Shown here piece after piece: positions 6,047-48,392 of a DNA stretch of 64,000 nt. Numbering within the stretch: position 1 is the first letter of the stretch; the number at the start of each line of letters is the position of its first letter. Source of the stretch: Alphaproteobacteria bacterium. Its GTDB lineage: Bacteria > Pseudomonadota > Alphaproteobacteria > Ferrovibrionales > Ferrovibrionaceae. A model generated the notes under the pieces. It did no database searches, had not been told where the DNA came from, and saw only the letters and a list, made by a program, of their open reading frames with translations. A program made the position numbers and the translations under genes. The stretch spans positions 310,001 to 374,000 of the forward strand of contig JAFKFH010000004.1 in the NCBI GenBank assembly GCA_017307375.1, given 5' to 3'.

Positions 6047-6122
6047 GAGCGCGTAGCTCAGCCGGTAGAGCATCTGACTTTTAATCAGGGGGTCCTGGGT
6101 TCGAGTCCCAGCGCGCTCACCA
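6047..6122 (+). tRNA. tRNA-Lys(TTT)
   Basis: Acceptor GAGCGCG pairs with CGCGCTC, the D-arm reads TAGCTCAGCCGGTAGAGCA, the anticodon loop CTTTTAA carries TTT, the T-arm reads GGTTCGAGTCC, and CCA is encoded. The tRNA is intact. Prophage sequence with an integrase gene begins immediately after it, so it is the likely integration target. Confidence 0.97.
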
Positions 6123-33236: not shown

Positions 33237-34069
33237 TGATCGTGCCCGGCGCCGTTCCCTATCTCGACGCCCTCACCGGCGACGCGCTCGGCCGCGCCGA
33301 CCGGCAGGCGGTAGGGCTCGATACCGCCCCGAGGCTGGTCAACGCGGCCTGCGAGGCCGGCCTCGTCCCCTGGGTCAGCCATGACCTCGGCACACTGGCC
33401 GCGATCAAGGCAGAGGATCCGGACCGCGCCAGCTTCTACCAGCTTTCGCGGGCCGCCCTGCATCCCGAGGCCGGCCGGCACGACACCGCGATCGTGGTTC
33501 TCACCGATGGGGGCCGCCCGGTAGCGTCAGGCTCGGTCCGCATCCGCTGGATCGACGGCACGCTGCGCGAGGCGCTGGAAAGCCGGACGCTGCTCTACGC
33601 CGATCCGCGCCAGGCGCCGGACGGCGAGGCGGTGATCTGCCGCGCCGCCAAGGCCACCGAAATCCGCTCCTGCGACGTGGCCGTCGCCGGCGGGCTGTGG
33701 GTGTCGCGCCAGCACACCACGGCCGACAGCCGCGTCAACCGCCTGCTGGTCCGCCTGCTGACACTGATCGCCACCGCGAACTATCGCTGGTCATGGTGCA
33801 TCTCGGTCAGCCACCCGCCGCTGATGCGGCGCGCATTCCCGGTCTATGGGGCCGACGGGGTCGAGGCCGGGGTGATCGTCACTGTCGATGGCGTGCCGAT
33901 CGAGACGGTGCTGATCCACGCCAGCCGCATGCGGTTCCTGGAAAACCTGCGCCTGCCGGCCTTCGCCGATCCGGGGGCCGACCTCGGCCAGCCCGCACCG
34001 GCCGACGTGCAGCGGGCGGCCGCGACGCGTCATGCCCTCGCCGGCATGGCCATGGAGGGCACGGCATGA
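33236..34069 (+). CDS. Phage hypothetical protein, 277 residues
   Basis: The 277-residue protein begins MIVPGAVPYLDALTGDALGR. Its centre (GGLWVSRQHTTADSRVNRLL) and C-terminal half (AFPVYGADGVEAGVIVTVDG) resemble an acyltransferase-like alpha/beta fold, but no motif proves this. It shares a base with the upstream gene and couples to a 27-residue frame. Confidence 0.5.
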   Translation: MIVPGAVPYLDALTGDALGRADRQAVGLDTAPRLVNAACEAGLVPWVSHDLGTLAAIKAEDPDRASFYQLSRAALHPEAGRHDTAIVVLTDGGRPVASGSVRIRWIDGTLREALESRTLLYADPRQAPDGEAVICRAAKATEIRSCDVAVAGGLWVSRQHTTADSRVNRLLVRLLTLIATANYRWSWCISVSHPPLMRRAFPVYGADGVEAGVIVTVDGVPIETVLIHASRMRFLENLRLPAFADPGADLGQPAPADVQRAAATRHALAGMAMEGTA

Positions 34070-34149
34070 CGCGGCCAGATCAAGCGCTGTTCACGCGTTC
34101 AGCCGCGGCGGCATCAGCCTTGACGGGATCAGCAGCGAGGGTGTGCTGA
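34066..34149 (+). CDS. Tiny coupled reading frame, 27 residues
   Basis: The frame (MTRPDQALFTRSAAAASALT, GSAARVC) starts on an ATGA overlap and its stop shares a base with the methyltransferase start. It may transfer ribosomes to the methyltransferase gene. Evidence is position only. Confidence 0.3.
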   Translation: MTRPDQALFTRSAAAASALTGSAARVC

Positions 34150-36323
34150 TGGCGCAACACGCGAAGGCCATTGCCACGGCTGGCGATCTGTTCGACCACG
34201 AGGCGCCCAGCCTGCCGCGTGGCCGGCGGCCGGGTCCGATGCGCGGCGAGCGCCGGGCGACCAGCCGCACCGATCGCCGCAGGCTGGCGGACGAGCGGCG
34301 CCGTGCCTGGAAGTTGGGCGACGGTATCAACGTGGTGCTGTTCGCGGGTGTCGGCGGGGCCTGCCAGGGTATCGAGGATGCCGGCTACCCGGTCCACATC
34401 GCGCTGAACCACGACGAAGTCGCAATTGCCGCGCATCGGGCGTTGCACCCCCATACCGAGCACATCCAGGCCGATATCTTCGAGGTCGACCCGTTGAAGG
34501 CGACACGCGGCCGGCGGATCAGGATCCTTTGGGGCAGCCCGGATTGCACCCACCATTCGGTCGCGGTGGGCGGCGCGCTGCTATCGAACCGCGTCCGGTC
34601 GATGCCCTGGCAGCTGTGCCGTTGGACCGGCACGCATCGCAAGCGCGGTCTGGGTCCGGACATGGTTTTCCTCGAGAACGTCCGCGAGATCCGGTCCTGG
34701 TCGCGGCTGATCGCCAAGCGCTGCAAGCTCACCGGCCGCGTGATCAAGGTCGACGGGACCGTCGCGGCACCGGGCGAGGTCGTGCCGCGCAAGCTGCAGG
34801 CACTGACGCGCGACACCAACAAGCGCAAGGCCGGCCGCCGGTACCGGCGCTGGGTCAAGCACATGCTCGGCTTCGGCGGCGTGTACCAGGATCGCGACCT
34901 CGTGATCGGCCATTACGGCGTGCCGACCACCCGCAAGCGCCTGTTCGGCGTCGCCCGCTACGATGGTGGCGCGATCGCGTGGCCCGAACAGACCCACGAT
35001 TACCGGCATGAGGAAACGGTCCGTTCCGGCCGGCTGTTGCCGCACGTGCCGGCCGCGCAGATCATCGACTGGTCGCTGCCGATCAACTCGATCTTCGACC
35101 GCGAGAAGGCCCTCGTCCGCGCGACCGAACAGCGGCTGGCCGATGGCGTCAAGCGCTTCGTGCTGCAGGCCGCGCAGCCCTTCCTGGTGCGACTGACCCA
35201 CCAGGGCCAGCGCCCGCCGCTCGATCTGGCCGACGCGATGACGACGATCACCGGGGCACATCGCGGCGAGATCGGCCTCGCCGTGCCGACGCTGGTCTCG
35301 ACCACGCATCGGACCAAGGGCAAGCGCCGCGCCGCCCATGATGGTGCCGATGCCGCGCCGACGTTTACCGCCGGGGTCAAGGGCGGAGAGTTCGCGGTGA
35401 TGTCGACCTTCGTGGCCGAGCATCGCGGCAACTCGGTCGGTCAGCCGATCGACCGGGCCCTCGGTGCTCAGACGGCGGTCGAGCACCACGCGCTGGCCGG
35501 CACCTGGCTGGTCCAGAACAACACCGGCATGGTCGGGCATTCGCCCCTCGATCCGGTGCCAGCGCTGGTCACCCGCGAAGGTCCGGTAGCGGTCGGGGCC
35601 GCGTGGCTCGCCCAGCACAACACCGGCAATGTCGGGCGCGACCTCGGCGAAGGCCTCGGTGTCATCACCACGGTGCCCAACCAGCAGCAGGTGGCGGCGG
35701 CCCTCCTGGTCCACCAGCGCGGTACCGGCGTTCCGACCTCGGTCGAGGACGCCATGCGCACCCTGGCCACCGGCGGCGGCAAGGGCGGCGATCATGTCGG
35801 GGTCGGCGCGGCGTTCATCGCCGAATACTACGGCACCGGCGGCCAGCACCAGGATATGCGCGACGGGCTGAACACCCAGCCGACGCGGGATCGCTTCGCC
35901 CCGGCCATGGCCGAGATGCAGGCGCCGCCGCTGACCGATGCGCAGCTGGCGCGGGCCCGGCAGGTCGCGGCCTTCCTGAGGAAGTACGGCGCATGGGATG
36001 GCCCAGGCGAGTTCGTGACGGTCGGCCCCTACATCATCGCCGATATCGGAATGCGTATGTTGCGGCCCCACGAGGCCGCGGCCGCGCACGAACTGCGCCT
36101 TCCCGAGACCATCGAGCTCCCGAAGCGCCACACCCGCGGCCCCCTGAAGGGCCAGCCGGTGATCGGCGACGACGGCAAGGTCGTCATGCTGCGCCAGCCG
36201 CTGAACAAGACCCAGGCCATGCGCCTGGTGGGCAACAGCGTCCCGCCGCGCATGGCCCGCCTGCTGGTCGAGGCGAATGCGCCCGATGCCTTCGATCCAT
36301 CGCTCGAAAGGATGGCTGCCTGA
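34149..36323 (+). CDS. DNA cytosine-5 methyltransferase with repeat-expanded middle
   Basis: At 724 residues this is much longer than typical C5 methyltransferases. Motif I is VLFAGVGGACQG (about 63-74). The catalytic Cys133 lies in GSPDCTHHS, a P-D-C form seen in phage members. Motif VI is ENVRE (176-180), motif VIII QDRDLVIGHYGVPTTRKR, and motif X LVGNSVPPRMA. Between about 350 and 575 are several degenerate repeats of about 40 residues with a core like AxLxxHNTGxVG, probably a multi-target recognition region. It would methylate several cytosine sites and shield phage DNA from host restriction (inference). Confidence 0.88.
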   Translation: MAQHAKAIATAGDLFDHEAPSLPRGRRPGPMRGERRATSRTDRRRLADERRRAWKLGDGINVVLFAGVGGACQGIEDAGYPVHIALNHDEVAIAAHRALHPHTEHIQADIFEVDPLKATRGRRIRILWGSPDCTHHSVAVGGALLSNRVRSMPWQLCRWTGTHRKRGLGPDMVFLENVREIRSWSRLIAKRCKLTGRVIKVDGTVAAPGEVVPRKLQALTRDTNKRKAGRRYRRWVKHMLGFGGVYQDRDLVIGHYGVPTTRKRLFGVARYDGGAIAWPEQTHDYRHEETVRSGRLLPHVPAAQIIDWSLPINSIFDREKALVRATEQRLADGVKRFVLQAAQPFLVRLTHQGQRPPLDLADAMTTITGAHRGEIGLAVPTLVSTTHRTKGKRRAAHDGADAAPTFTAGVKGGEFAVMSTFVAEHRGNSVGQPIDRALGAQTAVEHHALAGTWLVQNNTGMVGHSPLDPVPALVTREGPVAVGAAWLAQHNTGNVGRDLGEGLGVITTVPNQQQVAAALLVHQRGTGVPTSVEDAMRTLATGGGKGGDHVGVGAAFIAEYYGTGGQHQDMRDGLNTQPTRDRFAPAMAEMQAPPLTDAQLARARQVAAFLRKYGAWDGPGEFVTVGPYIIADIGMRMLRPHEAAAAHELRLPETIELPKRHTRGPLKGQPVIGDDGKVVMLRQPLNKTQAMRLVGNSVPPRMARLLVEANAPDAFDPSLERMAA

Positions 36324-36748
36324 TGTTCGATCACGAGGGCCTGATCCAGCAGCTCGAGGCGTGGCGCAGCCACGACCCCGTTCTCGACCGCGCGCTGTCC
36401 GACCAGGTGCTGCGCGCCGACGGATGGTTCACCGAGGACCATCCGGGCGTCTATGGGCGCGTGGTCTGGCGGCGGCAAGGCGAGCCGCGGCAGTACGGCG
36501 TCCAGGATCACCGCCCGCATCCGGTGGTCGACTTTGTGGCGGCCCGGGCACTGCTGCCGCAGCCGATCAGCTATTGCATGGCCTACGTGGCGGGCGAGGC
36601 CTCGGCGACCGTTGCCAGCCTGCGGCACGGGCGGAGCTTCATCGGCGCCAGCCCGGCGGAGACGGTCGCGCTGCTGATCGCGATCTTCCGATATCGCGCC
36701 TTCGACGCGCGCGCCAGCCTGCTTCAGCAGCCGGCAGGTGCCGCATGA
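36323..36748 (+). CDS. Phage hypothetical protein, 141 residues
   Basis: The frame begins MFDHEGLIQQLEAWRSHDPV and is soluble, with an aromatic N-terminal half and a helical end (ETVALLIAIFRYRAFDARAS). The ATG shares a base with the methyltransferase stop. No family recognised. Confidence 0.55.
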   Translation: MFDHEGLIQQLEAWRSHDPVLDRALSDQVLRADGWFTEDHPGVYGRVVWRRQGEPRQYGVQDHRPHPVVDFVAARALLPQPISYCMAYVAGEASATVASLRHGRSFIGASPAETVALLIAIFRYRAFDARASLLQQPAGAA

Positions 36749-37068
36749 CCTCGGCGACCCGGCGGCAGCTCATGACGACAAGTGCCTTGAGCGGCCCGAT
36801 TGCCGCCGCCGCCTATGTCGTGGCGGCGGGCGGAACTCGACCGGGTATCGCCAGGGGCGGCGCGATGGGCAAGTCCCATCATTTCGTCACCCGTCTCATC
36901 CATTCGGCCGCCGAAGCGGCCGACGAAATGCCGGCCCTGCCGGCGTCGCCCGCCGGAGTGCGTCCGGCTGTTTCCTCCCACGACTTGGCCGGCGCCACTA
37001 CCTCCGCCGTGGCGCCGGTCCTTTCGGGAGGCACCGCCGCGCCCGCGGCAACCATCCGGGAGAACTGA
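36745..37068 (+). CDS. Phage protein with a hydrophobic N-terminus, 107 residues
   Basis: MTSATRRQLMTTSALSGPIA starts with two arginines before a weakly hydrophobic stretch (ALSGPIAAAAYVVAAGG), vaguely like a Tat signal but short. The rest is low-complexity alanine/proline-rich. Possibly exported; uncertain. Confidence 0.45.
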   Translation: MTSATRRQLMTTSALSGPIAAAAYVVAAGGTRPGIARGGAMGKSHHFVTRLIHSAAEAADEMPALPASPAGVRPAVSSHDLAGATTSAVAPVLSGGTAAPAATIREN

Positions 37069-37070
37069 CC

Positions 37071-37793
37071 ATGGCCAATGTCGTGGGTATCGCCGCCGAG
37101 CAACTGCAACAGATCGTCTCTCGCGTCGAACGCCTTGAGGAAGAGAAGAAGGGCATCGCCGACGACATCAAGGAGGTCTACGCCGAAGCCAAGTCGAACG
37201 GCTTCGACGTCAAGATCATCCGCAACGTGATCAAGCTGCGCAAGCTCGACCGCGCCGCGCTGCGCGAGATGGACGAGATGATGCAGCTCTATCGCGAAGC
37301 GGTCGAGATGCCCGTCGAAACCTCGGGGCACGAGGTCGCCCAAGACAACGAAGCCGCGATCCTGCTGGGCGCGCTGGCGGGGATGGTGCCGAAGTCGGGC
37401 CAGATCCTGATCAATACCTCCCACGGAGGCATTCGCATCACCCGGGACCGCGGCGGCAAGATCGTCGCCGAACTGGTTACGCCCCGGTCCGCCGGCAAGC
37501 CCAGCGATGCAGCGCGAGGCGGCGCGAGCGGCGCTGACAACAAGGAGGCGGACGCTGACTGCGGGGGCGGGGATGGGGCAAAGCCCTCCAAGGCCAGCGA
37601 ACCGGCAAAGCAGAAGTCGCTCGACCTGCCCGATGTCGATGAAGCCGGGGCGGAGGAACTTGGCCGCCAATATGCGCGGGATGGCCGCCCCGTGCTCGAC
37701 AATCCGTTCCCCTTCCGCGACCCGCGACAGCCGCGGTTCGACAAGGGATGGCGCGCCGAGTCCGGCTCGGACGGCATGGGGCCTAAGACCTGA
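37071..37793 (+). CDS. GapR-domain protein fused to an RMF-like C-terminus
   Basis: Residues 1-80 match GapR/DUF2312: a coiled coil (LQQIVSRVERLEEEKKGIAD, DIKEVYAEAKSNGFDVKIIR) that clamps overtwisted AT-rich DNA and stimulates topoisomerases. The middle is a low-complexity linker. The last 50 residues (EELGRQYARDGRPVLDNPFP, FRDPRQPRFDKGW) match ribosome modulation factor-like domains that bind ribosomes. A DNA-topology clamp and a ribosome-binding module in one chain is notable. It is next to an AAA+ ATPase gene. Confidence 0.8.
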   Translation: MANVVGIAAEQLQQIVSRVERLEEEKKGIADDIKEVYAEAKSNGFDVKIIRNVIKLRKLDRAALREMDEMMQLYREAVEMPVETSGHEVAQDNEAAILLGALAGMVPKSGQILINTSHGGIRITRDRGGKIVAELVTPRSAGKPSDAARGGASGADNKEADADCGGGDGAKPSKASEPAKQKSLDLPDVDEAGAEELGRQYARDGRPVLDNPFPFRDPRQPRFDKGWRAESGSDGMGPKT

Positions 37794-38752
37794 TGGCACG
37801 GTCGAGGGCGTTCGACGATCATCAGCGTCACCTGCTGCAGTTCGGCGACGTGCTGATGCCGGACGCGGCATCCGAGCCGATCCTGGCGCCGGACATCAAG
37901 TCGGCGTTGCTGGAATGGCTTGAGGAGATCTGGGCCGACCACGAGTTGCAGGCGGTCGGGTTGACGCCCCGCCGCCGCGCCATGTTCTCGGGGCCGCCGG
38001 GCGTCGGCAAGACGACCCTTGCCCATCACCTGGCGGCGCGCCTGCGGCTCCGGATGCTCGCGGTGCAACCCGAGCGTCTGTCGAGCAAGTATGTCGGCGA
38101 GCACGCCCGCAACATCGGCGAACTCTTCGCTGTGGCAACGGCCCAGGCCGATCCGGTGATCCTGTTTCTGGATGAGTTCGACTCGGTGGCCGGCGAGCGC
38201 CGCGCCGCCCAGCAGGCCGCTGATGACGATCGCAATTCCGCGATCAACGCGCTGCTGCAGGCGATGGACCGGCACAACGGTTTCGTCATCGCGGCGACGA
38301 ACCACGCGGACCGGGTTGATCCGGCCGTCTGGCGGCGCTTCGACATCCATATCGAACTGGCCTTGCCGGGGCAGACCGAACGACAGGAAATCATCAAGCG
38401 CTACCTTGCGCCCTACGGCATGCCGTCGCGTCAGGTGGAGCTATTCGCCGAGGCGCTGGAAACAGCATCGCCTGCCCTGATCCGCGGGCTGTGCGAGAAC
38501 GTCAAGCGCAATCTCGTGCTCGGCCACAAGCTGAGCTGGCCGATGCAGCGCGAGGCCGTGTTCGCGCGGGCGATTGCGGCGGTTAGCCCGCACCCGGATC
38601 TCGGAAAGCCGCGCCTCTGGACCCACAAGGTCGAAGACGTCGCCATCCGGGCGATGAGCTGGCCGCTGGCTCTCGCCGTTGACCTGCCGGCGGAAACCGC
38701 GAGCGAACCCGAGACTGATCCGAAGGTCGCTCGATTTCCGGGGCCGCGCTGA
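37793..38752 (+). CDS. AAA+ ATPase
   Basis: The 319-residue protein has Walker A GPPGVGKTT, Walker B ILFLDEFDS, sensor 1 IAATNHADR and an arginine-finger region WRRFDIHIELALP. The sequence resembles single-ring AAA remodelling ATPases of phages, more than DnaC helicase loaders. It follows the GapR-RMF gene with one base overlap, so the two may cooperate in DNA or protein remodelling during replication (inference). Confidence 0.85.
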   Translation: MARSRAFDDHQRHLLQFGDVLMPDAASEPILAPDIKSALLEWLEEIWADHELQAVGLTPRRRAMFSGPPGVGKTTLAHHLAARLRLRMLAVQPERLSSKYVGEHARNIGELFAVATAQADPVILFLDEFDSVAGERRAAQQAADDDRNSAINALLQAMDRHNGFVIAATNHADRVDPAVWRRFDIHIELALPGQTERQEIIKRYLAPYGMPSRQVELFAEALETASPALIRGLCENVKRNLVLGHKLSWPMQREAVFARAIAAVSPHPDLGKPRLWTHKVEDVAIRAMSWPLALAVDLPAETASEPETDPKVARFPGPR

Positions 38753-39318
38753 TGTCGAGCCGCCCGCGCAACCTCGCTGCCTTGCAGAAGATGCTGCATC
38801 GGAGCGCCGCCAAGATCGTGTCGGTGTCGCCGCTGAAGGCGCGGCCGCGCGAGCGGCGCAGCGCGAAGGGCAGCATGGCCGCGCTGGCCTGGGACCTGCC
38901 GTCCGAACAGGGACGGGAGCGGGAGCATGTCCGGCTCGACCTGAAGATGCCTCCGGCGCTGTCGCGCTGCTTCACCAATGTGCCGGGTGTCGGCCGGGTC
39001 AAGACGAAGGTCTACCGGCTCTGGATCGCCGAGGCGCTGGACACGATCGGCAGGGCCAGGGTCGGGCGGGTTTCCGGCAAGGTCACGGTGGTGGTGGCGA
39101 TGCGCCGCCGGCCGCGCGCCGACGCCGACAACAGGCTGAAGGCGCTGGGCGACATCCTGAAGACTGCCGGCATTATCCGCGACGACAGCCTCGTCGATGC
39201 CTGGCACGTCGCCTGGGCCGATACCGGTCGCGGCGTGCGCATGCTGGTCCGCCCGTTCCGCCAGGAAGACCTGGTCGATCCCGCCCTGATCGGCCAGCCG
39301 GGTGATGACGCCCGATGA
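38752..39318 (+). CDS. rusA: RusA-family Holliday junction resolvase
   Basis: The C-terminal 120 residues match RusA: a start MPPALSRCFTNVPGVGRVKT, the acidic catalytic motif PRADADNRLKALGDIL (Asp124, Asp126), and IIRDDSLVDAWHVAW with a further acidic residue. A basic N-terminal extension of about 60 residues precedes it. RusA cuts four-way junctions made during phage recombination. Its stop lies inside the next small gene. Confidence 0.88.
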   Translation: MSSRPRNLAALQKMLHRSAAKIVSVSPLKARPRERRSAKGSMAALAWDLPSEQGREREHVRLDLKMPPALSRCFTNVPGVGRVKTKVYRLWIAEALDTIGRARVGRVSGKVTVVVAMRRRPRADADNRLKALGDILKTAGIIRDDSLVDAWHVAWADTGRGVRMLVRPFRQEDLVDPALIGQPGDDAR

Positions 39319-40525: not shown

Positions 40526-41227
40526 ATGCGCCCCATGCGCCGCCCCAACATCGCGAACCCCGCCGTCAAGAAGCGCGTCGACGAGCGGATCTGCCGGATG
40601 CGCCGCGACCAGCAGCCGACCCCGAGCATTCACGATATCTCCCGCGCTGTCGGCCTGTCGCGGTCCTACGTCCAGCGGGTGCTGGAAGCCTCCGGACTGC
40701 GCGCGGCCGGACTTACCGCGGCGCCGGTCACGAACTTCTCGCGGATCGTCGGCAGCAACGAGCTGATGGCCTATATCGCCGAGGCGCGCGAGCGCAATGC
40801 CAGCGACGACGAGATGGCCGCCCATCTCGGTTGCAGCGACGACACGATCCAGCGGGTCCGGCGCCAGATCGGCTGGGTTCGGGCGCATACGTCGACCTCG
40901 CCCCAGGAACGGCAGTCGCGCAACGATCGCATCCGGGCGCTGTACGAGGAACACGACGGTGACCTCAGGTTGATTGCCGCGGCCCTGGGCATGCAGACCT
41001 CGGCCGTCGAGCACATCGCGCACAAGATCGGCCTGATCGAAGCTTCGCGGGCGGCGCGGCGCGCAGTGTTCGGCGCGCGCCTCGCGGCCGCGGCACAGGC
41101 CTGCGGCCGGGCGCCCGAGAAGGCCTATGTCGACGATCCTCGGCAGGCGGCCCTGTCGCTCCTGATCGCGCCCCGCTACGTGGCGATCAGCCGGCAGTAT
41201 GTCGGCGCGCAGTCGAGCGCCGCCTGA
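40526..41227 (+). CDS. Multi-HTH phage protein, 233 residues
   Basis: The ATG at 40526 follows CAGGAGC. Three HTH-like units are visible: SIHDISRAVGLSRSYVQRVL, ASDDEMAAHLGCSDDTIQRV and DLRLIAAALGMQTSAVEHIA. Layout and spacing resemble the preceding gene, which suggests a duplicated family. A DNA-binding role is likely; target unknown. Confidence 0.65.
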   Translation: MRPMRRPNIANPAVKKRVDERICRMRRDQQPTPSIHDISRAVGLSRSYVQRVLEASGLRAAGLTAAPVTNFSRIVGSNELMAYIAEARERNASDDEMAAHLGCSDDTIQRVRRQIGWVRAHTSTSPQERQSRNDRIRALYEEHDGDLRLIAAALGMQTSAVEHIAHKIGLIEASRAARRAVFGARLAAAAQACGRAPEKAYVDDPRQAALSLLIAPRYVAISRQYVGAQSSAA

Positions 41228-43116
41228 TGGCCCAGGCGCGCCACCGGGATATTCGTGGCCCCGACCTGACCGCTGGAGAGATCTGGCCGGACGGCCAGCG
41301 CCCCCACAGCGTCGACGCGGTGGTCGCGGCCGACGACTATCAGCGTTTTCTCGAAGGCAAGATCCGGCTGGCCGCGAATTTTGGGATCGAGGTTGACCCC
41401 GCCGAGGTCAACCCGATCCTGAAGCCGCATCAGCGCGCCATCGTGCTGTGGGCGCTGCGGGGTGGCCGGCGGGCGATCTTCGCCTCGTTCGGCCTCGGCA
41501 AGACCTTCATGCAGCTGGAAATCCTGCGGCTGGTCGTGGCGCATCTGTCGGGCCGGCTCGGGCCGGCCGGCATCGCCCCGAACGTGCTGGCCGATCCGCC
41601 GGCCGCAGCCCGCGCGCTGCTGGTCGCACCGCTCGGCGTCCGGCAGGAATTCATGGGCGACGTTCGCGCGCTGGCCACCGGCGAGCATCCCGCCATCTCG
41701 GCCGAGCAGCGCGCCGAACTGGCCGCCTGGCAGGCTGGCCGGCCCGATCGGGTGATGACGCTGACATTCATTCGATCGGATGCCGAGGCCTCTGGTCCGG
41801 GCGTCTATATGACGAACTACGAGACGGTGCGTGAGGGCAAGCTCGACGTCATGCGCTTCGCCGCCGCCTCGCTCGACGAAGCGGCGATCCTGCGCGGTTT
41901 CGGGGGCTCGAAGACGTTCCGCGAGTTCATGCGGCTTTTCGACGGCATGCGCTGGAAGTGGGTGGCGACCGCCTGCCCGAGCCCGAACGAATACATCGAG
42001 ATGCTGGTCTATTCAGCTTTCCTCGAGGTGATGGACATCGGCCAGGCCAAGACGCGGTTCTTCAAGCGGAACAGCGAGCAGGCCGACAAGCTGACCCTGC
42101 ATCCGCACAAAGAACGGGAGTTCTGGTTGTGGGTCGCGTCCTGGGCCTTGTTCATCACCAAGCCGAGCGACCTCGGGGCCGAGTTCAGTGACGCCGGCTA
42201 CGACCTGCCGCCGCTCGATGTCCACTGGCACGAGATCGCGACCGACCATCGCGACGCCGGTTCCGAGCGCGGCGGCCAGTACCGGCTGCTGCGCGAGGAC
42301 GCGGTGGGCGTGGTCCAGGCCTCGCGCGAGAAGCGCCACAGCCTGTCGGCCCGGATCGCCAAGATGATGGAGATCCGGGAGATCGACCCCGGGGCGCACC
42401 GGATCATCTGGCACGACCTTGAGGCCGAGCGGCTGGCGATCGAGGCGGCGATCCCGGGCATCACCAGCGTCTATGGCTCCCAGGCGCTGGAACAGCGCGA
42501 GGAAGCGATCGTCGCTTTCTCGAACGGCCGGTTTCAGGAACTGGCGACCAAGCCGATGATCGCCGGCGCCGGCTGCAATTTTCAGCGCCATTGCGCCTGG
42601 GCCGTTTATCTCGGCATCGGCCACAAGTTTCACGATTTCATCCAGTCGATCCATCGCCTGCTGCGCTTCCTGCAGACCCGCGGCGTTCGTATCGACCTGA
42701 TCTACACCGAGGCCGATCGAGATCCGCCGGATCGGGTGGTCGGCATGAGCCGGGACGATGTCAACGCCCTGGTGGCCCGCGTGATCGGCACGCTGAAGCG
42801 GGCGCGGCTGGCCACCGGCAGGGAAGACGATACCCAGCTCGACATTGCGCGAGCGCTCGCCGCCGCCGGGATCGACTTCCAGCGCGAACACCGCCTGACG
42901 CCCGCCGATCGCCTTGACTTCTGGCTCGACGGCCTGGTCATCGAGGTCAAGTTGCGCGCCAACTCGAAGGCGGCGATCTACCGCCAGCTGGAGCGATACG
43001 CCCGGCATCCCGACGTCAGGGCGATCCTGCTGATCACCGGCACCGCCATGGGGCTGCCGCCAGAGATCGAAGGCAAGCCGGCCTATTACCTCAGCGTGGG
43101 GGCATCATGGCTCTGA
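41227..43116 (+). CDS. SF2 helicase fused to a PD-(D/E)XK-like nuclease domain
   Basis: The 629-residue protein has a helicase core with Walker A FGLGKTF (88-94), DEAA as motif II (217-220), and later SF2 motifs including a second RecA-like part (VYGSQALEQREEAIVAFSNG, TKPMIAGAGCNFQRHCAWAV, QSIHRLLR). The last 80 residues show a nuclease-like set: Glu554, Asp564 and Glu573-Val-Lys575 (DGLVIEVKLRANSKAAIYRQ). Phage helicases of this type often carry a methylase here instead. It may be a replication or recombination helicase that cleaves DNA. Confidence 0.8.
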   Translation: MAQARHRDIRGPDLTAGEIWPDGQRPHSVDAVVAADDYQRFLEGKIRLAANFGIEVDPAEVNPILKPHQRAIVLWALRGGRRAIFASFGLGKTFMQLEILRLVVAHLSGRLGPAGIAPNVLADPPAAARALLVAPLGVRQEFMGDVRALATGEHPAISAEQRAELAAWQAGRPDRVMTLTFIRSDAEASGPGVYMTNYETVREGKLDVMRFAAASLDEAAILRGFGGSKTFREFMRLFDGMRWKWVATACPSPNEYIEMLVYSAFLEVMDIGQAKTRFFKRNSEQADKLTLHPHKEREFWLWVASWALFITKPSDLGAEFSDAGYDLPPLDVHWHEIATDHRDAGSERGGQYRLLREDAVGVVQASREKRHSLSARIAKMMEIREIDPGAHRIIWHDLEAERLAIEAAIPGITSVYGSQALEQREEAIVAFSNGRFQELATKPMIAGAGCNFQRHCAWAVYLGIGHKFHDFIQSIHRLLRFLQTRGVRIDLIYTEADRDPPDRVVGMSRDDVNALVARVIGTLKRARLATGREDDTQLDIARALAAAGIDFQREHRLTPADRLDFWLDGLVIEVKLRANSKAAIYRQLERYARHPDVRAILLITGTAMGLPPEIEGKPAYYLSVGASWL

Positions 43117-44771
43117 CCTACGGTACTGCCCGTATCGAGGACGGCTATTGGGTGCTCGACAACCTGCCGCCCCATGCCTGCATGCGGTTCAAGGACGTGT
43201 TCCCCAGGACCGGCCGCACCGCCCGACTGCCCTTCAAGTTCAAGGTGTCGCCGGCGTCGAGCGCCGACCTCGAATGGTTCATGGCGCGCTACCCGCTGGA
43301 GATCGCCGCCAACGACCAGGCCGAGATGGTCGCCGGCCGGGAGACGCAGCAGCGCGCCTTCGAAGCCGCCGCGGCGATCCTGGCGCCTGGGTGGGAGCCG
43401 CCACCGCTGATCGGCTTCCGTGAGGGCCAGGCATTGCGGCCCTACCAGGCGCAGGCGGTGCAGTTGTGCATGGCTCGCCGCGGGCTGCTGCTGGGCGACG
43501 ACCTCGGGTTGGGCAAGACCTTCGTCGGCTGTGGGCTTATGGTCCAGCCGGGCACGCTGCCCTGCGCGGTGGTGACGCCGGTCCATCTCCAGAGCCAGTG
43601 GCTCAAGGTGGTCCGGGCCGTCACGACTTTGCGGGTCCACGTCGTCAAGAAGATGCGGCCCTACGATCTGCCGCCGGCCGACGTCTACCTGTTCCGCTAC
43701 AGCCAGCTGCGCGGCTGGTTCGATGTGTTCGGAAGCGGGTTCTTCCGGTCGGTCATCTTCGAGGAAGCGCATGAGCTCCGGACCGGCCTTGCCTCTGACA
43801 AGGGCCGGGCGGCCAAACAGTTGGCGGAGAATGCTGGCTGGCGCCTCGGGCTGACCGCGACGCCCGTGCAGGGCTACGGCACGGAAATCCATCCGGTGAT
43901 GTCGTTCATCAACGACGAGGTTCTGGGGCCGTTCGAGGAATTCCACAGAGAGTGGCTGCCGCTCGATGACGAGAAGGCGCGCGGCCTCGGCTCATACCTG
44001 CGCGACCAGGGCGTCTACCTGCGCCGCACCAAGGCCGACGTCGGCCAGCAGCTGCCGCCGGTGAACCGGATCGTCGAGACGATCGACTGGGATGCCAAGA
44101 CGCTGGAGCGGGTCGAGGACCTGGCCCGCCAGTTGGCGATCAAGGCGGTGAACGGCAGTTTCATGGAGCGCGGCCAGGCTGCGCGGGATCTCGACCTGAT
44201 GGTGCGTCGCGCCACCGGCGTGGCCAAGGCGCGCGCGGTGGCGCTGTTCGTCCGCCTGCTCTGCGATGCGGGCCGCAAGGTGCTGCTCGCCGGCTGGCAC
44301 CGCGACGTCTACGACATCTGGCTCAAGGAGTTAGCCGCGCTCAAGCCGGCCATGTACACCGGAAGCGAATCGCCCAAGCAGAAGGCTGATGCGATCGAGG
44401 CCTTCGTGTCTGGCGAGGCGCAGGTCCTGATCATCTCGCTACGGGCCGGCGCTGGCATCGACGGGCTGCAGCACGTCTGCTCGACGGTCGTTGCAGGCGA
44501 ACTGGACTGGCAGCCGGGCGTCCACAACCAGCTGATCGGCCGACTGGATCGCGAGGGTCAGACCGAGCCGGTCGACGCTTTCTTTCTGATCGCGCAGGAC
44601 GGTTCGGACCCGCCGATGGTCGAGGTCTTGGGGATCAAGTCGTCGCAGGCGGCCGCGATCACCGACCCGTTGGGCCAAGCCGTCGCGACGCCGGCTGACG
44701 AAAGCCGCATGCGGGCGCTGGTACAGCGCTATCTGCGACCCGGCGATGTCCAGGTCGAGGTGGCGGCATGA
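43107..44771 (+). CDS. SNF2-type DNA helicase/translocase
   Basis: The 554-residue protein begins in the end of the first helicase gene (10-base overlap). It has Walker A DDLGLGKTFVG (131-141), an EEAHE motif II (219-223), GLTATPVQG as motif III, and C-terminal motifs LLAGWHRDVYD, LIISLRAGAGIDGLQH and QLIGRLDREGQ. A substrate-recognition domain is in the first 100 residues. It should move along double-stranded DNA by ATP hydrolysis. Tandem location suggests the two helicases act as a unit. Confidence 0.88.
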   Translation: MALTYGTARIEDGYWVLDNLPPHACMRFKDVFPRTGRTARLPFKFKVSPASSADLEWFMARYPLEIAANDQAEMVAGRETQQRAFEAAAAILAPGWEPPPLIGFREGQALRPYQAQAVQLCMARRGLLLGDDLGLGKTFVGCGLMVQPGTLPCAVVTPVHLQSQWLKVVRAVTTLRVHVVKKMRPYDLPPADVYLFRYSQLRGWFDVFGSGFFRSVIFEEAHELRTGLASDKGRAAKQLAENAGWRLGLTATPVQGYGTEIHPVMSFINDEVLGPFEEFHREWLPLDDEKARGLGSYLRDQGVYLRRTKADVGQQLPPVNRIVETIDWDAKTLERVEDLARQLAIKAVNGSFMERGQAARDLDLMVRRATGVAKARAVALFVRLLCDAGRKVLLAGWHRDVYDIWLKELAALKPAMYTGSESPKQKADAIEAFVSGEAQVLIISLRAGAGIDGLQHVCSTVVAGELDWQPGVHNQLIGRLDREGQTEPVDAFFLIAQDGSDPPMVEVLGIKSSQAAAITDPLGQAVATPADESRMRALVQRYLRPGDVQVEVAA

Positions 44772-45673
44772 AAAGCGGCTACACAACCGGCCGCTGGTCC
44801 AACGGATTGGCTGAATGGACCCAGGGCGACACCGCATTCCTATCGGTGGCGTTCACCTGGCGGCTGGACGACGCTTACATGCGCGCGCTTTGGTACCGGG
44901 CGCAGGGGTATCGCGTCAGGGCTGGCGGCCCGGGCATCTTCACGCGCAAGCACTACTTGGCCGATGTCGCTGAAATCGGTGGGGAAATCCCCGACGCGAT
45001 CGCCCGCCACAACCCGATGGCCACGTTCGCCAGCCGTGGCTGCCCGGTTGGGTGCTGGTTCTGCATCGTGCCCAAGATGGAGGGGCGCGACTTCACCCTG
45101 TTGCCGGAATTCGAGCCACGGCCGGTATTGTGCGACAACAACCTCTCGGCGCTACCGGCCGATTATCAGAGCCATATCGTCCAGCGCTACCGCGCGGCCG
45201 GCGTTCCGCTGCTCGATGCCAACAGCGGGTTCGAGCCGGCAACGTTCGATGACGAGGTCTATGAGCGCTGGGCACCGATCAACCGTGGCCCTTGGCGCTT
45301 CGGTTATGACGAAACCACCGAAGGCGCTCAGGTCCAGCGGGTCATGCAGATGCTGCGGGCCCGCGACATGCGGCCACATCGCATTCGGGTCTACGTGATG
45401 ATCGGCGCCGAACCGTTCGCCGCGTGCATGGATCGCATAAGGCGCGTCATCGATTGGGGCGGTGAGCCGCACTGCCAGCCATTTATCAAGCTTAATGCGC
45501 TCCACAAGAAGCCGAACGTGCGACACGACTGGACGCCAGGGCTGCTAACCGATGTCGCACGGTGGGCAAACCGCCGCTACTGGAAATACACCGACTTCGC
45601 CGACTACCAGCGTTCTGGTGCAGCGGCTCGCGCTCAAGGCCACGACGATCTTTTCGAGGGTGCTGCGGCATGA
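44768..45673 (+). CDS. Phage radical SAM protein
   Basis: Cysteines 92, 96 and 99 in TFASRGCPVGCWFCIVPKME form the radical SAM CxxxCxxC motif. A later GFEPATFDDEVYERWA and YVMIGAEPF fit the TIM-barrel core. The protein is shorter (301 residues) than most and has no second cluster motif. Phages use radical SAM enzymes for DNA modification or nucleotide analogues; the substrate is unknown. It overlaps the SNF2 helicase gene as ATGA. Confidence 0.85.
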   Translation: MKSGYTTGRWSNGLAEWTQGDTAFLSVAFTWRLDDAYMRALWYRAQGYRVRAGGPGIFTRKHYLADVAEIGGEIPDAIARHNPMATFASRGCPVGCWFCIVPKMEGRDFTLLPEFEPRPVLCDNNLSALPADYQSHIVQRYRAAGVPLLDANSGFEPATFDDEVYERWAPINRGPWRFGYDETTEGAQVQRVMQMLRARDMRPHRIRVYVMIGAEPFAACMDRIRRVIDWGGEPHCQPFIKLNALHKKPNVRHDWTPGLLTDVARWANRRYWKYTDFADYQRSGAAARAQGHDDLFEGAAA

Positions 45674-46074
45674 TGTCGCGAGATGGCGCGCCTATCGTGG
45701 ACGAGGTGCTGGCCGCCGCGCTTGCGGACATCGCGGATCCCGTCGAGGCGATCATTCGGGACTGTCCGACGGCGCTCGGGCACAACGTCGTGAACGGCTC
45801 GCTGGGAAAGCCGACGAAGATTGTCCGGCTTGCGTGCAGTCACTTCACGATAACGGATCGCCGCGCTACCTGCCCATGCCGACGGTGCGGCGCGATGATC
45901 CGCGCCGGCTATGACTACGACGCCTTCCGCCGGCTCGGCGCACTGGATGAATTCGATTGGCCGAAAGATCGCCTGAAGAACATCCATCAACCGCGCCGGG
46001 GCGACAGTCGCTGGACATCGCAGGGCCGACGTGACCTCGAGCCCGAAGCTGATGCTGCCGGGGTCATGGCATGA
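45670..46074 (+). CDS. Phage protein with a zinc-binding-like patch, 134 residues
   Basis: MMSRDGAPIVDEVLAAALAD begins at 45670, on an ATGA overlap. The middle (LACSHFTITDRRATCPCRRC) has spaced cysteines and a histidine fitting a zinc site. It may accompany the radical SAM enzyme in the same unit. No family recognised. Confidence 0.55.
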   Translation: MMSRDGAPIVDEVLAAALADIADPVEAIIRDCPTALGHNVVNGSLGKPTKIVRLACSHFTITDRRATCPCRRCGAMIRAGYDYDAFRRLGALDEFDWPKDRLKNIHQPRRGDSRWTSQGRRDLEPEADAAGVMA

Positions 46075-46559
46075 TCTGGCGCCTGTCGAACCGGGCCGAT
46101 CCGCACGCCCTCATGCTGGCCGACCGGCACTATAGCCGCCAGAAGCCAGGCACCCGCCAGTTTGTCGCCCCGGGCGGCTGCATCGTCCTGCTCTCGGTCT
46201 GCGGCCGCGCCCTGTGGGTGTCACTGCGCCAGCGCATCGTCAAGCACGCTTGGCCGGGGGCATGGGCATGCGCGTTGTTTCGCAACGAGGGAGCAGGGCT
46301 GGCCAGCGACCTGATTGCCCAGGCACTGGCGGCAACCAGGTCGATCGGGGGCAATCCTCCGCCGGCGGGCGTCATCACCTTCGTTGATCCAGATATGGTC
46401 CGCCGCAAGCGTGATCCTGGCCTGTGCTTTTTGCGGGCTGGCTTCCGGGTCGTCGGCGCGACGCGCAAGGGGCTGATCGTTCTGCAGATGCCTGCGCTCC
46501 AGGTGCCGGCGCCGATCGCGCCATTGGGCCAGCAGTTCACATTCGGTGGTGCGGCGTGA
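46071..46559 (+). CDS. Conserved phage protein, acetyltransferase-like, 162 residues
   Basis: The start MIWRLSNRADPHALMLADRH and YSRQKPGTRQFVAPGGCIVL is a pattern conserved among phages, with an alpha/beta organisation that may be GNAT-like. No acetyl-CoA-binding motif is certain. The following gene resembles it and may come from duplication. Confidence 0.6.
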   Translation: MIWRLSNRADPHALMLADRHYSRQKPGTRQFVAPGGCIVLLSVCGRALWVSLRQRIVKHAWPGAWACALFRNEGAGLASDLIAQALAATRSIGGNPPPAGVITFVDPDMVRRKRDPGLCFLRAGFRVVGATRKGLIVLQMPALQVPAPIAPLGQQFTFGGAA

Positions 46560-47050
46560 ACTGGTCCTGGCAGTACGCGGATCTCGACGACAGCGCGGTC
46601 GGGCGGTATGGCGCCCGGCGCGATTGGGCGCAGCTCGGGACATGCTGCGTTCTCTCGGCCGCCGGGCCGACCTGGGTCGCGCTGCGGCCGGCCGAACCGC
46701 TGCCGCAATGGCCGGATTGCTGGCTGCTGCTGATGTTCAAGGTCAGCACCTTCGCGGTGCAAGCCGCCGTCGACGCGCTAGCGATCGAGGCCCTGCGCCG
46801 CACGCGCCGCCATCTCGGCGACCCGCCCGCCAGCGGCATCGTCGCCTTCGTCGGCCAGCAGCGGTTCGACTATCTGACCTGGCCGCCCCCGGCGGTGGCC
46901 GCGCTGGTTCATGCCGGCTTCGCGCGCGTCGGCATCGCCGAGGACGGCGCTGAGATCCTGCAATTGCCGCCCGATCGTTTCCCGCCGGCCTGGGCCGGCA
47001 GGGCCATCACCCGGCATGCCCGGCGCTCCACCCGCTTGGTGCGGCCATGA
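46556..47050 (+). CDS. Phage protein related to the preceding gene, 164 residues
   Basis: A GTG at 46556 overlaps the upstream stop. The protein (NWSWQYADLDDSAVGRYGAR, IVAFVGQQRFDYLTWPPPAV, LVHAGFARVGIAEDGAEILQ) shares the layout of the preceding gene, including the ITFVDP-like centre and xAGFRxVG end. Function unknown. Confidence 0.55.
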   Translation: MNWSWQYADLDDSAVGRYGARRDWAQLGTCCVLSAAGPTWVALRPAEPLPQWPDCWLLLMFKVSTFAVQAAVDALAIEALRRTRRHLGDPPASGIVAFVGQQRFDYLTWPPPAVAALVHAGFARVGIAEDGAEILQLPPDRFPPAWAGRAITRHARRSTRLVRP

Positions 47051-47075
47051 TTTTCGCCAATGTCCGGAGTACCTC

Positions 47076-48392
47076 ATGAGCGACGACGGGTTCCCCGCCA
47101 TCGACCTGACCAGCGCGCCGCCGATCGAGCCGCTCGTCCCGCCGGAAGTCGACCTACGCGGCCTGCTGTACATGCCGCTCTATGGCGACCTCCTGATCAA
47201 GTCGCGGGGATGGATCCTCGCCAGCGGCGACGGTGCGAAGGCGATGATCCAGCTGTGGTGCCATGCCTTCACCCACGAGGTTCCGGCCGCCAGTCTGCCC
47301 AACGACGACCGCCTGCTCGCCTCCTATGCGGGCTACGGCGCCGGCCCGGACGGGCGGAAGGCCTGGTCTCGGGTGAAGGGCGAGGCGCTGTGGAAATGGC
47401 AGCTGGCGACCGACGGGCGGCTGTACCACCCGATCCTCGCCGGCATCGCCCTGCGATCCTGGTCCGGCCGCACCGCGGCCAGTGCGCTGCCGAAGTCGAG
47501 CGATGCCAGCCGCCAGGCACGGCACCGCGCCAAGGTGGCCGGCCGGCGCCGCGAACTCGCCACGTTGGGCATCGCCGCGCCGAAGGGCGCCACGCTCGCC
47601 GAACTCGACGAGATGATGCGTGACGCCCTGGGTGACGTCTCGCCGGCCGTGACCGGGGACGGGGATGGTAACGCGCATGGTGACGCTGTCGTCACGGTCG
47701 ATGACGCTCCCGTAACGCGCGATGGTGACGTTACGCGTAACGCTCTGACCGTTACGCGTAACGCTTCGGCCGTTACGACCATCGTGACGCGTAACGCCCC
47801 CGTCACGCCCCAAGGGAAAGAGACAGTTGAAGGTCAAGGGACAGGGGTTACTACCGAAAATAATCCAGCAGCGCAGCTAATCACCGGACAGCGTGAGAGT
47901 GACGGGCTGCGCTGCGCCCAGGATGAATTGGTCTATGAAGTCGCCAGGGCCGCGGTGCGCGCCGCCGGGCTCGACGAAGGCCATGTCGAGACGGAATTCG
48001 ACGTCGTCCAAGGCTGGCTGCGGCACGGTGTCGGGAAGACGGCGATCCTGCAGGTCGTGCAGGCCAAGGTCATCCAGGCCCGCAAGGCCGGCAAGCGCAT
48101 CGGCTCGCTGGCCTATTTCACGGCGCCCCTGCGCGACAGCGTCGCCGGCCCGGCGCAGCACGACATCAAGCCCACCGTCACGGTTGACCCGGCCCAGCGG
48201 GCCGAATACTGGCGCCGCCGGCTGCGCGACTGCATCTCGGCCGATGGTTGGGACGTGAACAGGTGGCGCCGTGACATCGATGGGCCTGCCCCCCCGATGC
48301 TCGGCCATCGCGTGCCGGCCGAGATCCTGGCTGAGGCCGACTTCCGCCCGCATTTCCCGAGCCTGTTTCCCGCCTCCACGGCGGCCGCTTGA
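47076..48392 (+). CDS. Phage replication initiator-like protein (DUF1376-type) containing the probable origin
   Basis: The N-terminal part (YMPLYGDLLIKSRGWILASG, AMIQLWCHAFTHEVPAASLP) matches DUF1376, a winged-helix-like domain of phage replication proteins. A low-complexity threonine/valine-rich part (180-260) is encoded by iterons. The C-terminal 150 residues are helical (VYEVARAAVRAAGLDEGHVE). It may bind its own gene as lambda O does and bring in host helicase. It begins 25 bases after the upstream gene. Confidence 0.7.
   Translation: MSDDGFPAIDLTSAPPIEPLVPPEVDLRGLLYMPLYGDLLIKSRGWILASGDGAKAMIQLWCHAFTHEVPAASLPNDDRLLASYAGYGAGPDGRKAWSRVKGEALWKWQLATDGRLYHPILAGIALRSWSGRTAASALPKSSDASRQARHRAKVAGRRRELATLGIAAPKGATLAELDEMMRDALGDVSPAVTGDGDGNAHGDAVVTVDDAPVTRDGDVTRNALTVTRNASAVTTIVTRNAPVTPQGKETVEGQGTGVTTENNPAAQLITGQRESDGLRCAQDELVYEVARAAVRAAGLDEGHVETEFDVVQGWLRHGVGKTAILQVVQAKVIQARKAGKRIGSLAYFTAPLRDSVAGPAQHDIKPTVTVDPAQRAEYWRRRLRDCISADGWDVNRWRRDIDGPAPPMLGHRVPAEILAEADFRPHFPSLFPASTAAA
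47668..47797. repeat. Iterons inside the replication gene, probable origin
   Basis: GTTACGCGTAAC occurs at 47730-47741 and 47751-47762, with half-site GTTACG at 47772: a strict 21-bp phase, two helical turns. A variant GTGACGCGTAAC lies at 47784-47795, and GTAACGCG occurs at 47668 and 47712. A less GC-rich stretch (47810-47885) follows and could melt first. This matches initiator-gene origins such as lambda ori. Confidence 0.65.

Follow-up and report, generated by a model that had tools for sequence, protein, structure and literature searches.

This prophage, in contig JAFKFH010000004.1 of an Alphaproteobacteria bacterium, encodes a chimeric helicase-nuclease gene directly followed by the gene for a second motor. 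The arrangement raises the questions of what the tail of the helicase is, how it came to be there and which of the two motors it serves. The window (the whole stretch of DNA analysed) comprises 64,000 nucleotides, and all features given below lie on its forward strand.

The chimeric gene, hereafter HEL-NUC (629 aa, 41227-43116), joins an SF2 helicase to a putative PD-(D/E)XK nuclease. It overlaps by 10 nt the gene of an SNF2-family translocase (554 aa, 43107-44771), which in turn overlaps by 4 nt that of a radical SAM protein (301 aa, 44768-45673; CxxxCxxC present, phrog_9298 at E 2e-15). Both overlaps had been claimed in the original prediction and are confirmed by the ORF coordinates. Its placement of the genes in a replication region is supported as well, since a PHROG scan identified replication and recombination genes around HEL-NUC: a replication-type protein and a RusA-like Holliday junction resolvase (38752-39318), the latter a context for a role in recombination. 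Along the whole of HEL-NUC, and also across the junction between its two halves, the frequency of G or C at third codon positions stays at 0.74-0.98 in blocks of 50 codons, so that the gene reads as a single coding frame. A single-frameshift assembly artefact was rejected as its source, since one frameshift cannot delete about 370 methylase residues and join the remainder in frame at the start of the nuclease.

A predicted nuclease domain in the place of a methylase

The first part of HEL-NUC is a helicase core (residues ~38-499, 41338-42723) in which Walker A (K92), motif II (D217-E218) and motif VI (R477/R480) are conserved. Residues 38-497 match PHROG DNA-helicase profiles (phrog_16, E 9e-29); the complete protein has no Pfam match at E≤1. 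The same helicase is found in phage helicase-methylases of the phrog_16 type, such as those of Rhizobium phage RR1-A (AGN34432.1; 61% identical over 76% of the HEL-NUC query), Pseudomonas phage D14I (57.6% over 78%) and Paracoccus phage Pthi1. These proteins, however, end in a methylase where HEL-NUC has its nuclease. PF01555 is matched at E 1.5e-12 in both RR1-A and Pthi1; D14I has no PF01555 match at E≤0.5, yet it matches a model built from such methylase C-termini. The two architectures part at a seven-residue junction, PPDRVVG (42724-42744), the point at which the relatives run on into a linker and the methylase. Among 203 distinct complete helicase relatives, mostly the best-matching entries of longer lists and exclusive of 6 incomplete and 4 truncated ORFs, the C-terminal domain is a methylase in 200, nothing in two and a nuclease in one, HEL-NUC itself; of three nuclease-bearing entries initially distinct, two are copies of HEL-NUC clipped at locus ends. 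The claim that a nuclease-like tail replaces the usual methylase is thus borne out. Pfam and comparison with the relatives both indicate that the HEL-NUC protein lacks the methylase, and the methylase domain of RR1-A, used as query, found no match in the source genome, the same search detecting it in two control genomes. The C5-type DNA methyltransferase encoded elsewhere in the prophage (34032-36323) is distinct from this missing domain.

The tail (residues 507-629, 42745-43113) begins at an ATG near the start of free-standing relatives. Residues 516-627 match phrog_5928, a family of unknown function (E 3e-29), and the last 89 residues of the protein gave a weak Pfam match to PDDEXK_3 (E 0.29). 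Seven residues (E, E, D, E, K, Q and Y) are invariant in all of 117 distinct nuclease domains. They include two catalytic-type residues, E533 (42823-42825) and D564 (the D of PD, 42916-42918), the E and K of the ExK motif E573-V-K575 (42943-42951), and Q587 and Y591 of a Q-xxx-Y sequence (42985-42999) which we take to be a QxxxY motif of the RecB/Cas4 kind. E573 and K575 are exactly the two residues that had been named for mutation.

An AF2 model of the domain (pLDDT 92.7, pTM 0.87) has helices (H) and strands (E) in the order H27-40, E46-50, E56-61, E64-69, H75-86 and E93-98, with E533 at the beginning of the first helix. Its top matches among solved structures, as found by VIA-align, are restriction endonucleases; BglII aligns at Z 10.4 (rmsd 3.2, 117 aligned) and BamHI is also among the fold matches. 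Bax1 aligns at Z 7.3 (rmsd 2.4, 83 aligned), a value below 8 that may mean a common arrangement only; the structure of Bax1 is matched in this way while Pfam leaves the VRR-NUC profile unlisted for HEL-NUC at E≤1. Plain Foldseek comparison of the model with the PDB gave nothing at E≤0.001, the best match (2.9e-3) being likewise a restriction endonuclease, and sequence searches of solved structures with the HEL-NUC protein or the nuclease profile gave no convincing relative, so that fold comparison alone succeeded. Judged from sequence and model, the tail of HEL-NUC is a complete predicted PD-(D/E)XK nuclease domain. The decisive point of the original prediction, whether the C-terminus folds as a restriction-endonuclease core, was put to the model and a nuclease fold was obtained. 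The proposed limits, residues 540-629, placed the nuclease correctly and made it somewhat too short. In the full-length model, the helicase core is confidently folded over most of residues 61-500; the tail has low confidence there because the alignment contained no nuclease rows, and the orientation of the domains is not given.

The domain shares QxxxY with Cas4 and differs from it in its cysteines. Cas4 has four cysteines for an iron-sulphur cluster, the cluster being stated for one Cas4 (PMC4176176), whereas residues 507-629 of HEL-NUC include no cysteine and therefore cannot hold a cluster of this type.

The genetic partner of the nuclease

The protein encoded directly after HEL-NUC matches PF00176 (E 2e-15) and PF00271 above the Pfam cut-off, and its SNF2 motif columns I, II, III and VI are conserved. 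As sole query, it retrieved a sample of 58 viral loci, three of them too short to judge. Each of the 55 loci that can be evaluated, the present one among them, has the nuclease, which lies directly upstream in 47, at a greater distance upstream and on the same strand in 6, and fused to the C-terminus of SNF2 in 2. A second sample (the best 80 of 477) gave the same result, with the nuclease in 78/78 loci (68 directly upstream, 10 at 0.3-2.7 kb upstream), although this sample is less neutral, its query alignment consisting of SNF2 proteins near the nuclease and its contigs being partly those of the first sample. C-terminal SNF2-nuclease fusions number four (L190, an Armatimonadetes MAG; L282, a Vibrio plasmid; L440; and L444). 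A further candidate (L104), with the nuclease at the N-terminus, was left uncounted: the C-terminus of its nuclease is lost where the frame enters SNF2, which looks like a frameshift. Sequence identities of the nuclease and SNF2 proteins correlate (r 0.89 over 122 loci, a few of them entered twice; 0/500 permutations as high), as those of co-inherited genes do in any case, and this locus itself shows a moderate rank correlation (Spearman 0.63).

Free-standing pairs of the same two families, with overlapping genes, occur in Ruegeria phage 45A6 (ANH49073/ANH49074; its nuclease is 46% identical to that of HEL-NUC) and in Paracoccus phage Pyei1, and the genes annotated as "Cas4 family exonuclease" and "DNA helicase" in Arthrobacter phages are the same pair. 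These phages encode the nuclease in a gene of its own, whereas HEL-NUC carries it as the C-terminal part of a different helicase. The pair adjoins DNA-metabolism genes in several phages (DNA polymerase III beta; a RusA-like resolvase with a single-stranded DNA-binding protein). Gene neighbourhoods indicate that by descent the nuclease belongs with the downstream SNF2 translocase, as its regular genetic partner, and is not an accessory of the helicase. The translocase-plus-nuclease design originally proposed thus holds for the presence of a nuclease and a motor; its partner by descent, however, is SNF2 (55/55 and 78/78 loci), not the helicase to which it is attached. Nucleases of the phrog_5928 family accordingly appear as regular gene partners of an SNF2 translocase family in phages, and also beside helicases on large plasmids. 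To our knowledge, little has been established about the roles of this SNF2 class in phages; the pair offers a simple, testable motor-nuclease system, small enough for biochemistry.

Origin and rarity of the fusion

Comparison of the sequences gives good support to HEL-NUC being a prophage chimera that combines the helicase of a common phage helicase-methylase with a usually separate small nuclease from directly upstream of SNF2. Helicase-methylase sequence lies within 5 kb in 12/79 other SNF2 loci, each time upstream and on the same strand, and the order helicase-methylase, nuclease, SNF2 recurs in other loci. In one of these (L367) the stop of the helicase-methylase overlaps the start of the nuclease by 4 nt; in another (L157) just one 45-codon ORF separates the two. 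Seen from the helicase side, the link is loose: the nuclease or SNF2 was found in the surrounding sequence of only 13 of the 223 other helicase loci examined. In 10 of the 13 (two contigs being counted twice) the helicase-methylase precedes them, all on the same strand; the exceptions have SNF2 first (L213, L261) or on the other strand (L108). Since this order recurs, loss of the methylase would yield the fusion: in an operon of this kind, in-frame loss of the methylase and of the gene junction would make HEL-NUC. We regard this as most simply explaining how the nuclease may have been joined to the helicase. An equivalent illegitimate recombination would be another route. RR1-A, the closest named helicase relative among the matches listed, has no copy of the nuclease or of SNF2 in the 21 kb examined, which puts recombination between phages on an equal footing with an internal deletion.

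The fusion was seen in one genome. An IMG/VR contig has identical proteins and may derive from the same data. A second helicase-nuclease fusion was found neither among 125 distinct nuclease domains nor among the 58 viral loci retrieved with SNF2. HEL-NUC as query gave no other fusion in genome samples of 61 relatives and 385 members of the class, nor did the nuclease profile in 398 genomes of the phylum. Of 312 matching phage records (60 of them listed), one covers at least 80% of HEL-NUC, and it is a helicase-methylase; of 57 matching plasmid records (20 listed), none does so. The search for further fusions with the same order, suggested at the outset, thus returned none beyond HEL-NUC, the order recurring only as separate genes. 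In the literature searched, to which most subscription journals do not belong, no description of the nuclease-SNF2 pair or of the fusion was recognised. The component parts are known, their combination in HEL-NUC is new, and the fusion looks like a rare event.

Candidate roles of the fused nuclease

The chimera is a natural experiment on whether tethering or shared evolution decides which motor the nuclease follows. We infer that the nuclease continues to act with SNF2, the motor encoded directly after it. The reading that we consider probable combines the chimeric origin with a nuclease that continues to serve the SNF2 motor in a phage DNA-processing module while being covalently attached to another one. 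SNF2 would track along duplex DNA and remodel or branch-migrate replication or recombination intermediates, and wherever this motor halted, at a structure or an end, the nuclease would cut, in a partnership resembling that of archaeal XPB and Bax1. XPB and Bax1, for which a heterodimer is reported (PMC7293015), are likewise an SF2 motor and a PD-(D/E)XK nuclease with a VRR-Nuc-like core, encoded by two adjacent genes; Bax1, however, is larger and has further domains, its likeness to the HEL-NUC nuclease is one of fold, and the pair described here is known from genetic linkage only. A similar division of labour has been proposed for jumbo phages, in which Snf2-type helicases, in the place of UvsW, and RecB-family proteins of the restriction-endonuclease fold, as candidate junction resolvases, would act in recombination-dependent replication (PMC7824862); the parts of that account available to us contain neither the nuclease-SNF2 pair nor the fusion. 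The fusion would bring a second motor into the SNF2-nuclease complex and give up methylation of phage DNA. More tentatively, HEL-NUC and SNF2 might form one two-motor nuclease machine, in which the fusion bridges two SF2 motors across one cutting site and a DNA-marking module has become a cutting module. If so, it would exemplify in nature the exchange of a motor's modification arm for a cutting arm.

The original prediction pointed out that the translocase-plus-nuclease design recurs in defence and anti-plasmid systems. On a reading of this kind, the module would be a weapon for superinfection exclusion or of a restriction-like type: incoming DNA would be scanned by the motors, and whatever lacks phage methylation would be cut by the nuclease. 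In archaea, defence functions are predicted for operons of a methylase and an SNF2-nuclease (PMC7641849), and the predicted COG1743-DUF499-SWI2/SNF2-nuclease-EVE restriction system in the same source places an SNF2 motor and a PD-(D/E)XK nuclease near a methylase. In HEL-NUC, however, it is a different helicase that carries the nuclease, and PHROG scans of 29 other ORFs of the window named neither DUF499 nor EVE. The prophage still has its C5 methylase, a gene annotated as a restriction alleviation protein comes after the SNF2 gene in phage D14I, and methylases, of different kinds, directly abut the nuclease in some relatives (7/107 loci; phage 45A6; a Pseudomonas koreensis plasmid). Yet of 107 nuclease-SNF2 loci, 80 (all but 27) could be assessed upstream, and a methylase lies within 4 kb there in 31; downstream, one lies at this distance in 3/107. 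These counts are lower bounds obtained with six seed types; none of these types is obligate, and with the six seeds no fixed methylase-nuclease-SNF2 triad was found. The SNF2 protein matches many PADLOC defence models (39 families, best ZorD at E 1e-19), but at the superfamily level: its bit scores fall an order of magnitude or more below the curated NCBIfam cut-offs (DrmD 60.5 vs 610, DpdE 28.1 vs 500, ZorD 22.5 vs 1500), so that it fails membership of DISARM, Dpd and Zorya. A defence island was rejected on these grounds. PADLOC lists nothing for HEL-NUC itself at E≤1, the fusion took a methylase away and added none, and the pair lies near DNA-metabolism genes in several phages. The defence suggestion is thus unsupported, and we consider a role of this kind unlikely.

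Nor does it seem probable that the nuclease now serves the attached helicase as a single-chain helicase-nuclease, SNF2 being an independent motor. The two are covalently tethered, the helicase motifs are intact and the seven-residue junction is short enough that it would keep the domains close; the link, however, is unconserved (1/203 distinct helicases), and even here the nuclease lies directly before SNF2, to whose C-terminus it is fused in four other sequences. Least likely of all, to judge from the sequence, would be a recent accident of little meaning, in which an internal ATG (42745) still allows separate translation of the nuclease and the fusion protein is a by-product that does no harm: that ATG, near the start of the free-standing relatives, is kept, a weak GGTG-type ribosome site (judged by eye) precedes it and the fusion is a single occurrence, but the frame is open and compositionally normal throughout and all catalytic-type residues are kept, so that HEL-NUC is not visibly decaying.

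One point against a role of the nuclease in resolving junctions is that such a role could be redundant, the prophage already having a RusA-like resolvase.

The helicase and its C-terminal nuclease

The ORFs, overlaps and coordinates initially reported for HEL-NUC (41227-43116), the adjacent SNF2 translocase (43107-44771) and the radical SAM gene were all correct; the last (44768-45673; phrog_9298) overlaps the SNF2 gene by 4 nt. The observation of a helicase with a nuclease-like tail overlapping SNF2 was confirmed by a family match, by an AF2 model and by invariant residues. Residues 516-627 match phrog_5928, a PHROGs family of unknown function (E 3e-29), and E533, E554, D564, E573, K575, Q587 and Y591 are invariant in 117 of 117 distinct nuclease sequences. 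The AF2 model, built from an alignment of 26 sequences (mean pLDDT 92.7, pTM 0.87), has the helix-strand order of a restriction-endonuclease core, the fold predicted for this C-terminus. Structural comparison agrees, with matches to BglII (Z 10.4, rmsd 3.2, 117 aligned), BamHI (Z 9.7, rmsd 3.3, 119 aligned), a Pyrococcus repair endonuclease (Z 8.0, rmsd 2.6, 87 aligned), EndoMS (Z 7.7, rmsd 3.0, 90 aligned), Bax1 in complex with XPB (Z 7.3, rmsd 2.4, 83 aligned) and McrBC (Z 7.0, rmsd 3.2, 96 aligned), values below 8 possibly reflecting a common arrangement only. Plain Foldseek with the same model gave no match at E≤0.001. Sequence and model thus identify the tail as a predicted nuclease with an E-D-ExK active site and a QxxxY motif. 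The E-SD-EVK motif described for the phage resolvase Hjc_15-6 is comparable (PMC8805305).

The helicase motifs of HEL-NUC are intact. To gather relatives, the whole protein served as the first query; an alignment restricted to the helicase followed, from which the best 80 of 353 and the best 80 of 574 confirmed matches were taken. Leaving aside 6 incomplete and 4 truncated ORFs, distinct relatives with a complete C-terminus carry a methylase domain in 200 cases, nothing in 2 and a nuclease in 1, HEL-NUC itself; both helicases with a bare C-terminus (L108 and L110) have a methylase gene nearby. The methylase model used for counting was built from the C-termini of the helicase-methylase relatives themselves, and PF01555 (Pfam) agrees with it in two of three phage proteins tested. 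As a query, the methylase of Rhizobium phage RR1-A found no match in the window genome and matches in two control genomes. The original interpretation is partly supported: a nuclease in the methylase position stands (200 versus 1), while the partnership shifts, the nuclease pairing with SNF2 (55 of 55 loci, below). The fusion is a single case among the sequences collected, its activity being putative.

Pairing of the nuclease with SNF2

Distinct free-standing relatives found with the nuclease as query lie just upstream of SNF2 in 36 cases and farther away in 4, with no SNF2 seen in 1. Since this sample is silent on SNF2 genes lacking a nuclease, SNF2 was then used as the starting point. A first survey of SNF2 relatives (best 80 of 477), whose query alignment was taken from SNF2 proteins near a nuclease, placed the nuclease directly upstream in 68 loci. 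In 10 more it lies on the same strand, upstream by 0.3-2.7 kb; two loci were cut too short and none lacked it. The window SNF2 protein as sole query yielded 58 loci, 3 of them cut too short. Among the 55 evaluable, the nuclease is directly upstream in 47 (window locus counted), farther upstream in 6 and fused to the SNF2 C-terminus in 2; none is without it. The two samples share contigs, and both cover relatives of the window SNF2 rather than more distant SNF2 helicases. C-terminal fusions occur in an Armatimonadetes MAG (L190), a Vibrio plasmid (L282) and two viral contigs exceeding 150 kb (L440, L444).

Pairwise identities of nuclease and SNF2 over 122 loci correlate with r 0.89 (0 of 500 permutations as high), although co-travelling genes correlate to some degree anyway. 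Large plasmids carry the pair as well: the nuclease occurs in 59 plasmid records, and four of five regions opened have a separate nuclease gene followed by a helicase gene, the remaining one being the Vibrio fusion. Gene pairing indicates that the nuclease belongs with SNF2. This pairing is the most useful result, and HEL-NUC is an unusual rearrangement of it. On the Azospira plasmid pAZI09 (L286, 5354-9053), the nuclease-SNF2 pair and one hypothetical gene come before a DUF4031 gene and genes of queuosine salvage, which hints at a connection to modified bases.

That nuclease-SNF2 forms a restriction system carries little weight. Systems of methylase plus SNF2-nuclease figure in a published prediction (PMC7641849), but the SNF2 protein scores far under the cut-offs of named defence proteins. 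Moreover, when six kinds of methylase were sought around 107 distinct nuclease-SNF2 loci, one lay immediately upstream in 7, within 4 kb upstream in a further 24 and within 4 kb downstream in 3; none was present within 4 kb in 49, and 27 could not be judged. None of the six is therefore a constant partner.

Origin of the fusion

Of 79 other loci in the first SNF2 survey, 12 have helicase-methylase sequence no more than 5 kb from SNF2, upstream and on the same strand every time; L412 and L437, from the second, show the same order. In L367 the helicase-methylase stop and the nuclease start overlap as GTGA, the nuclease gene in turn abutting SNF2; in L157 only one 45-codon ORF separates helicase-methylase and nuclease. 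In HEL-NUC, helicase similarity stops near residue 499 and is followed by seven residues and then an ATG near the starts of free-standing nucleases. Given these gene orders and this junction, loss of the methylase from an operon ordered helicase-methylase, nuclease, SNF2 would account for the fusion, recombination between phages being as possible as internal deletion. The helicase-methylase ORF of L367 (1406-4645) has a long extra segment in its helicase domain, overlapping a 196-codon ORF in another frame (2194-2781), possibly an inserted homing-type gene.

Viewed from the helicase, the association looks looser. Apart from 5 copies of the window locus, the 228 helicase loci include only 13 with nuclease or SNF2 in the stretch available. 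In 10 of these (two contigs counted twice) helicase-methylase leads and the strand is shared; L213 and L261 begin with SNF2, and in L108 SNF2 lies on the opposite strand. Directly after DNA polymerase III beta, Paracoccus phage Pthi1 (L004) carries helicase-methylase and Pyei1 (L287) the nuclease-SNF2 pair, as if the two were interchangeable.

Possible function and prophage surroundings

The SF2 motor XPB and the nuclease Bax1, whose genes are neighbours, assemble into a complex (PMC7293015), and Snf2 helicases with RecB-type nucleases have been proposed to serve recombination in jumbo phages (PMC7824862). By analogy, we infer that SNF2 would move along duplex DNA while the nuclease cuts structures encountered. 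The fused helicase would contribute a second motor and lose methylation. Because mobile elements are proposed to use helicase-methylase couplings to shield incoming DNA from restriction (PMC5512222), the prophage may have forfeited that benefit; speculatively, its C5 methylase (34032-36323) might compensate.

The prophage, in a host genome of 7.5 Mb, appears to begin beside tRNA-Lys (6047-6122) with an integrase (6257-7606); terminase, portal, protease and major head genes follow from 50538 on. The reported genes come after a RusA-like resolvase (38752-39318) and before a gene for a replication-type protein (46911-48392). Given this resolvase, the HEL-NUC nuclease need not be the sole junction-cutting enzyme. 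Identical copies of HEL-NUC and SNF2 occur on an 83-kb IMG/VR contig, perhaps derived from the same data as the window genome. An AAA ATPase (37793-38752) closely matches PADLOC IetA (E 7e-54) and phrog_3757; the gene just before it (36738-37793) matches phrog_4212 alone and no PADLOC family. Two adjacent, partly overlapping ORFs (46071-46559 and 46424-47050) both match phrog_24928 (E 1e-46 and 4e-8) and look like a diverged tandem duplication.
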